Assembly (NCBI RefSeq): GCF_036345155.1
Contig: NZ_CP107772.1
Location: 744,001 to 808,000 of the forward strand
Direction of reading: 5' to 3'
DNA: 64,000 nt
DNA from: Streptomyces sp. NBC_00582
GTDB lineage: Bacteria > Actinomycetota > Actinomycetes > Streptomycetales > Streptomycetaceae
The notes below the pieces were generated by a model. That model searched no databases. It had not been told where the DNA came from and saw only the letters and a program-made list of their open reading frames with translations. Shown here in pieces: positions 1 through 27,533 of this stretch (positions are counted from its first letter, which is position 1; each line of letters starts with the position of its first letter). The translations under genes were made by a program, and so were the position numbers.

Positions 1-27533
<27,533 letters not shown>

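Follow-up and report, generated by a model that had tools for sequence, protein, structure and literature searches.

The question raised by this locus is whether gene A, a large polyketide synthase (PKS) gene of Streptomyces sp. NBC_00582, has lost its reading frame through a single missing base or whether that base is missing from the assembled sequence only. The window, that is, the whole stretch of 64,000 nucleotides that was analyzed, covers positions 744001-808000 of a 10.79-Mb contig in a genome of 11.1 Mb and two contigs; coordinates below are those of the window unless given as contig positions. Gene A lies on the minus strand, and the homopolymer at its frame break reads CCCCC on the plus strand at 13829-13833 (5 G in the mRNA). 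The corresponding tract in the module 1 copy reads CCCCCC (19993-19998), and the flanks in modules 1 and 2 match without exception over 127 bases toward lower coordinates and 224 bases toward higher ones, with one C as the single difference between the two copies across 351 flanking bases. The coding strand accordingly reads CTG GGG GTG TGC in module 2 and CTG GGG GGT GTG in module 1.

The upstream open reading frame (ORF), 27707 to 13446, encodes 4,753 amino acids, the last ~129 of which lie beyond the tract in the shifted frame and form an out-of-frame tail (13446-13828, minus strand) that ends at the stop at 13446. A second phase of gene A is free of stops from 13887 to 5395, and the ORF list contains a GTG-started ORF running from 13827 to 5395. 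The initial annotation was correct in its observation of a frame break: direct comparison of the copies agreed with its count of six C in module 1 and five in module 2 between equal flanks, its end of the upstream protein at 13446 was found after the shifted residues, and frames, Pfam domains, and a motif scan all placed the break inside the enoyl reductase (ER), with the remainder of that domain and all of module 3 open in the other phase.

Apart from the break, gene A has the ordinary build of one modular type I PKS gene, with a KSQ loading module and three fully reducing modules. The first open part (13829-27707, minus strand) spans the KSQ-AT-ACP loading module, module 1, and module 2 as far as mid-ER, and the second (5395-13828, minus strand) carries the rest of ER2, KR2, ACP2, module 3, and a C-terminal tail. 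KS, AT, DH, ER, KR, and ACP families were detected by Pfam in both parts, and Pfam and the motif scan together gave domains in module order, as expected of a modular type I PKS. The motif scan gave this order as KSQ-AT-ACP, KS-AT-DH-ER-KR-ACP, KS-AT-DH-[ER | ER]-KR-ACP, and KS-AT-DH-ER-KR-ACP, with the break at the bar, and what is presumably the glycine-rich NADPH-binding motif of ER2 sits a little downstream of the break, in the second part. The first-part ORF aligns with four orthologues only from its residue 52-68, so the start may be later, for example, at the ATG at 27533.

The PKS region around gene A is very large, spanning contig positions ~722-910 kb. Motifs judged by eye revealed two KSQ-like loading modules, one in gene A and one in a gene at contig positions 897239-910423. 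A thioesterase was found only on the protein at 41333-52273, of two C-termini scanned; the last 508 residues of the other, a protein at contig positions 722473-732864, contained KR and ACP domains and no thioesterase. The two loading modules and the thioesterase suggest, from sequence features, two neighboring assembly lines within contig 721-910 kb (in the window, 5395-27707 and 41333-64000 are concerned). The suggestion that the break would leave the cluster dead therefore holds in part: the line of gene A would certainly be stopped by a real break, the other line not necessarily. A KSIII-like gene (contig 721430-722476) adjoins the gene for the 722473-732864 protein and might, speculatively, pass the chain on. 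On the plus strand, a 254-amino-acid protein (29647-30411) had no Pfam match at E ≤ 1e-5. A search of plasmids with the accessory genes returned three records, in which an aldo/keto reductase or MMPL gene matched in part, and a DNA search of 395 genomes with the P450 gene returned four at E ≤ 1e-200, namely this genome, G014, G117, and G125.

The orthologues of gene A that were aligned are unbroken. Residues 3700-4620 of the first part, used as a protein query, gave 1,192 matches, and five of the 120 listed were aligned; P0007 (6,056 amino acids, 68%), a possible further relative, was left out. The five were from NPDC005811 (7,415 amino acids, 90% identity to the query), NPDC000345 (7,432, 86%), YKOK-I1 (7,365, 83%), NBC_00557 (7,436, 73%), and, as a partial sequence, NPDC001388 (6,243, 87%). 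In all four full-length orthologues (7,365-7,436 amino acids) and in the partial one, the reading frame continues across the region without a shift, which makes a single uninterrupted frame the ancestral state. On each of the five, the two pieces from the window meet gaplessly and overlap by 1-9 residues; on P0001, for example, the first piece matches residues 1-4568 and the second 4568-7415, and the module 2 ER of this protein reads ELGGVRSGE at the site, as does module 1 of the window. Identities upstream and downstream of the break were 94.0 and 93.3, 89.7 and 90.0, 84.8 and 84.4, and 77.0 and 78.1% for the four full-length orthologues and 89.2 and 89.5% for the partial one, and this near equality gives no sign of decay downstream. 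One of these orthologues can be followed at the DNA level as well: gene A is open in G117, of the same genus, over 402171-424760, with counterparts of the P450 (84%) and of the conserved 254-amino-acid protein (79% identical) beside it.

The picture was the same across ER copies at large. Sixty-five of 67 ER loci scanned (L001-L007, L022-L051, and L100-L129, leaving out L008, a 50-base match, and L064-L099) read through the site without a change of frame; both exceptions are the window's own copy, which was retrieved twice. The 65 comprise six other copies in the same genome, two duplicates, and 57 distinct places in other genomes, many of which belong to other PKS clusters. Among the orthologues aligned and the ER loci scanned, the break was thus found in this assembly only. 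Of the marks of a recent pseudogene, loss of frame is present (the stop at 13446), and neither further lesions nor relaxed constraint was seen in gene A, as would also be expected of a very recent event; if real, the break would be very young. Protein collections are biased toward intact genes, since a broken gene may never be given a protein entry. The 4,753-residue first part of gene A is absent among the 120 proteins listed, and P0011, with 5,472 residues, is present; gene A is perhaps recorded without a protein.

That the break is real but bridged by a −1 slip on the G run, in translation or transcription, giving some full-length protein, is highly improbable. The frame arithmetic raised in the initial annotation is right: on the mRNA, CUG GGG GUG, a −1 slip of the GGG tRNA re-pairs fully and restores the residues of module 1. 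The mechanism itself found no backing. A programmed −1 site would be expected to be conserved in orthologues, and neither those aligned nor the other ER loci scanned share the break; the same GGG slip is allowed at 154 of 179 other G runs of at least 5 in these PKS genes, so the tract is not special; and a tandem-slip heptamer was not seen by eye. A stimulatory structure downstream was likewise not indicated by fold energy, a measure with pseudoknots outside its scope: the 61 nucleotides beyond the tract fold at −19.9 kcal/mol compared with a mean of −23.6 over the 179 tracts, only 45 of which are weaker. In the excerpts available from the literature on transcriptional slippage or ribosomal frameshifting together with polyketide synthases, we found no case in a PKS gene. 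Recoding was rejected on the unconserved break, the commonness of slip sites, and a downstream fold below mean stability.

Less probable still is that gene A is now two genes, whose downstream part, started at GTG 13827, works in trans as a split module. The ORF this would need exists (13827 to 5395), but the split would fall inside an ER, the upstream part would carry the out-of-frame tail, and the downstream part is without the charged N-terminal stretch that the region's other extender PKS proteins show by eye. None of the five aligned orthologues is split at the site. The lack of a split in orthologues and of a charged N-terminal stretch led us to reject this explanation.

The tract sits within an ER block (~1 kb) whose copies in three modules were homogenized recently. 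In 100-base bins, modules 1 and 2 share 94-100% identity in the block (13134-14133 in module 2, minus strand), and the range is 88-100% once module 4, here the name for that of the next PKS gene, is included. Identity drops clearly in most adjacent bins, with further similar stretches farther out: between modules 1 and 2, the ten bins of the low-side flank have identities of 0.59-0.87, except 0.93 at 12034, and the high-side flank up to 16133 has 0.55-0.89. The module 1 ER copy (19714-20265, minus strand) is in frame and 98% identical over 551 bases, and the module 4 copy (454-1003, minus strand) is in frame and 96% identical. Over ~1 kb, the three ER copies are 96-97% alike, whereas the other three copies in this genome are 71-85% identical to them and, of the four ER copies in G117, three are 81-82% and the fourth 70-71%. 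Within orthologous proteins, ER1 and ER2 are at least as similar to each other as to any ER from another species in P0002 (95%), P0003 (95%), and P0004 (90%); P0001 is the exception, with 92% within the protein, 93% to P0002, and 95% to the window's. ER3 is not homogenized, at 64-70% to ER1 and ER2 in four orthologues and 89-96% between species. Judged by these identities, the homogenized blocks of modules 1, 2, and 4 look like the outcome of gene conversion.

Such a block makes the tract a hard place for short reads. It falls in an exact repeat at least 200 bases long, as do 42 of 504 G/C runs of at least 5 in the PKS region (54 at a repeat length of 150 bases and 81 at 100). This position favors a cause linked to the repeat, although it is one event viewed post hoc. 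The PKS region has 106 G/C runs of at least 5 within exact repeats of 50 bases, and no other of them breaks a frame.

How clean the assembly is elsewhere was assessed with a 6-frame, third-order coding hidden Markov model (HMM) based on codon usage, which was trained on the same genome and used no homology. It placed the frame switch at 13828-13833, where the flanking segments scored log-odds of 751 and 994. Six other candidates in 1.52 Mb scored 15.6-85.2 on one side and 15.8-50.5 on the other; HMM totals rise with segment length, so part of this gap is due to the length of gene A. These figures come from a stricter rule (overrun of at least 75 bases, before 40; gap below 30, before 45; retraining on more sequence), which left three candidates in 460 kb of the control G117. 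The looser setting had given four plus six others in 724 kb and four in the 460-kb control, and candidate 675384, with a long overrun, was present at that setting and gone at the stricter one. Of the six, 5250655 (which joins two unlike proteins) and 8321222 have the appearance of ordinary gene ends in translations viewed by eye, and 5307780 and 2284922 fit neither gene ends nor frame breaks plainly. The HMM and translations viewed by eye also mark contig positions 658445-658829 and 2011239-2012501 as possibly real frame breaks. Sensitivity was 42% (117 of 276 planted deletions recovered), with 98 of 180 recovered in gene interiors. Neither the HMM nor the ORF frames flagged a second break in the PKS genes of the 722-910-kb region.

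Few other breaks in 1.52 Mb indicate that the assembly is good in unique sequence, and the HMM results for this genome (1.52 Mb) and for G117 (460 kb) do not support a generally error-prone assembly. The low density of breaks counts against that possibility and not against errors confined to repeats.

We infer that the missing C is probably an omission in the assembled consensus. A one-base change in a G/C run with all else intact is what such an omission would leave, and the orthologues are unbroken (four full-length and one partial, with 65 of 67 ER loci); the many breaks across the assembly that could accompany it were not seen (six others in 1.52 Mb, at 42% sensitivity). The tract is a G/C homopolymer within sequence that occurs in two to three nearly identical copies. 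Short reads are not uniquely placeable there, and a long-read undercount at the tract may stay uncorrected; the residual errors of a good assembly should then collect where reads cannot be placed. Short-read polishing practice, the low break density, the unbroken frames at the other runs in 50-base repeats, the bias of protein collections, and the existence of real single-C deletions count against a consensus error. Some makers of complete actinomycete genomes do polish with short reads, with Polypolish and then POLCA, according to the part of PMC11260486 available.

That a single base was really lost very recently, probably when replication slipped in the C run, and that this ended the gene A line in this strain is a possibility we take seriously without thinking it probable; its weight relative to a consensus error is a matter of judgment and was not computed. 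The sparseness of other HMM-detected breaks in the assembly speaks for it, and so do published cases: in the portion of PMC7357120 available, a single cytosine deletion in cmlI of S. venezuelae ATCC 21113 silenced a cluster and stopped chloramphenicol production, and a reverted strain gave a small amount of product, and a review, in the section available, notes PKS frameshifts in two other actinomycete clusters, one of them as errors or real mutations (PMC8944477). With a real deletion, the downstream part would be intact because the event was too recent for decay. Gene A and the other PKS frames have no second lesion flagged and gene A no downstream acceleration relative to orthologues, which weighs against a deletion, although a young mutation would look alike on both counts; the deletion also sits where short reads are hardest to place. 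The proposal in the initial annotation of an error or a very recent mutation is thus supported by the intact orthologues, the lack of downstream decay, and the near-perfect intragenic repeat.

Were the deletion real, conversion by the module 1 or module 4 copy could later repair it. That conversion among ER copies makes such frameshifts reversible, switching the line off and on within a population, seems very unlikely; if true, a broken module would be re-templated from module 1 or 4.

A consensus omission remains our preferred reading, and the case of gene A serves mainly as a caution. Annotators may call it a pseudogene or a split gene, and product prediction would drop modules 2 and 3 although the four aligned full-length orthologues are whole. 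Homogenized PKS modules are a spot for distrust in an otherwise clean assembly. The cause is ordinary, probably either a sequencing error or a mutation that arose very recently. A published remark on false frameshifts reportedly goes back to Blazic et al. 2012.

As far as the available parts of the sources go, both an error and a fresh mutation have published Streptomyces precedents; PMC7176366 likewise remarks, in the part available, on false frameshifts. Most differences in a PacBio assembly of S. leeuwenhoekii were, in the excerpt available, omissions of C or G in homopolymers, 2,934 bases were inserted in correction, and one omission, later corrected, had put a PKS gene out of frame (PMC4487206). 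For S. albus SM254, the available text gives 205 remaining indels corrected, nearly all in G or C homopolymers (PMC4832174). The break in gene A resembles these, as described there, in that one C or G is lost in a short run, and it resembles S. leeuwenhoekii further in that a single omission breaks the frame of a PKS gene (PMC4487206). The errors in those two genomes were, in the text at hand, frequent and revealed by Illumina reads, whereas other breaks are rare here and judged from the assembly alone. With cmlI of S. venezuelae ATCC 21113, as described in the accessible text, gene A shares one C absent from a biosynthetic gene; the cmlI deletion was laboratory tested and is not in a PKS module. 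Finally, PMC4256081 describes, in the portion available, concerted evolution of PKS domains through internal recombination. The window's ER1, ER2, and ER4, closer to each other than to the G117 copies, fit that description, and ER3 of gene A, in contrast, stands outside the homogenization.
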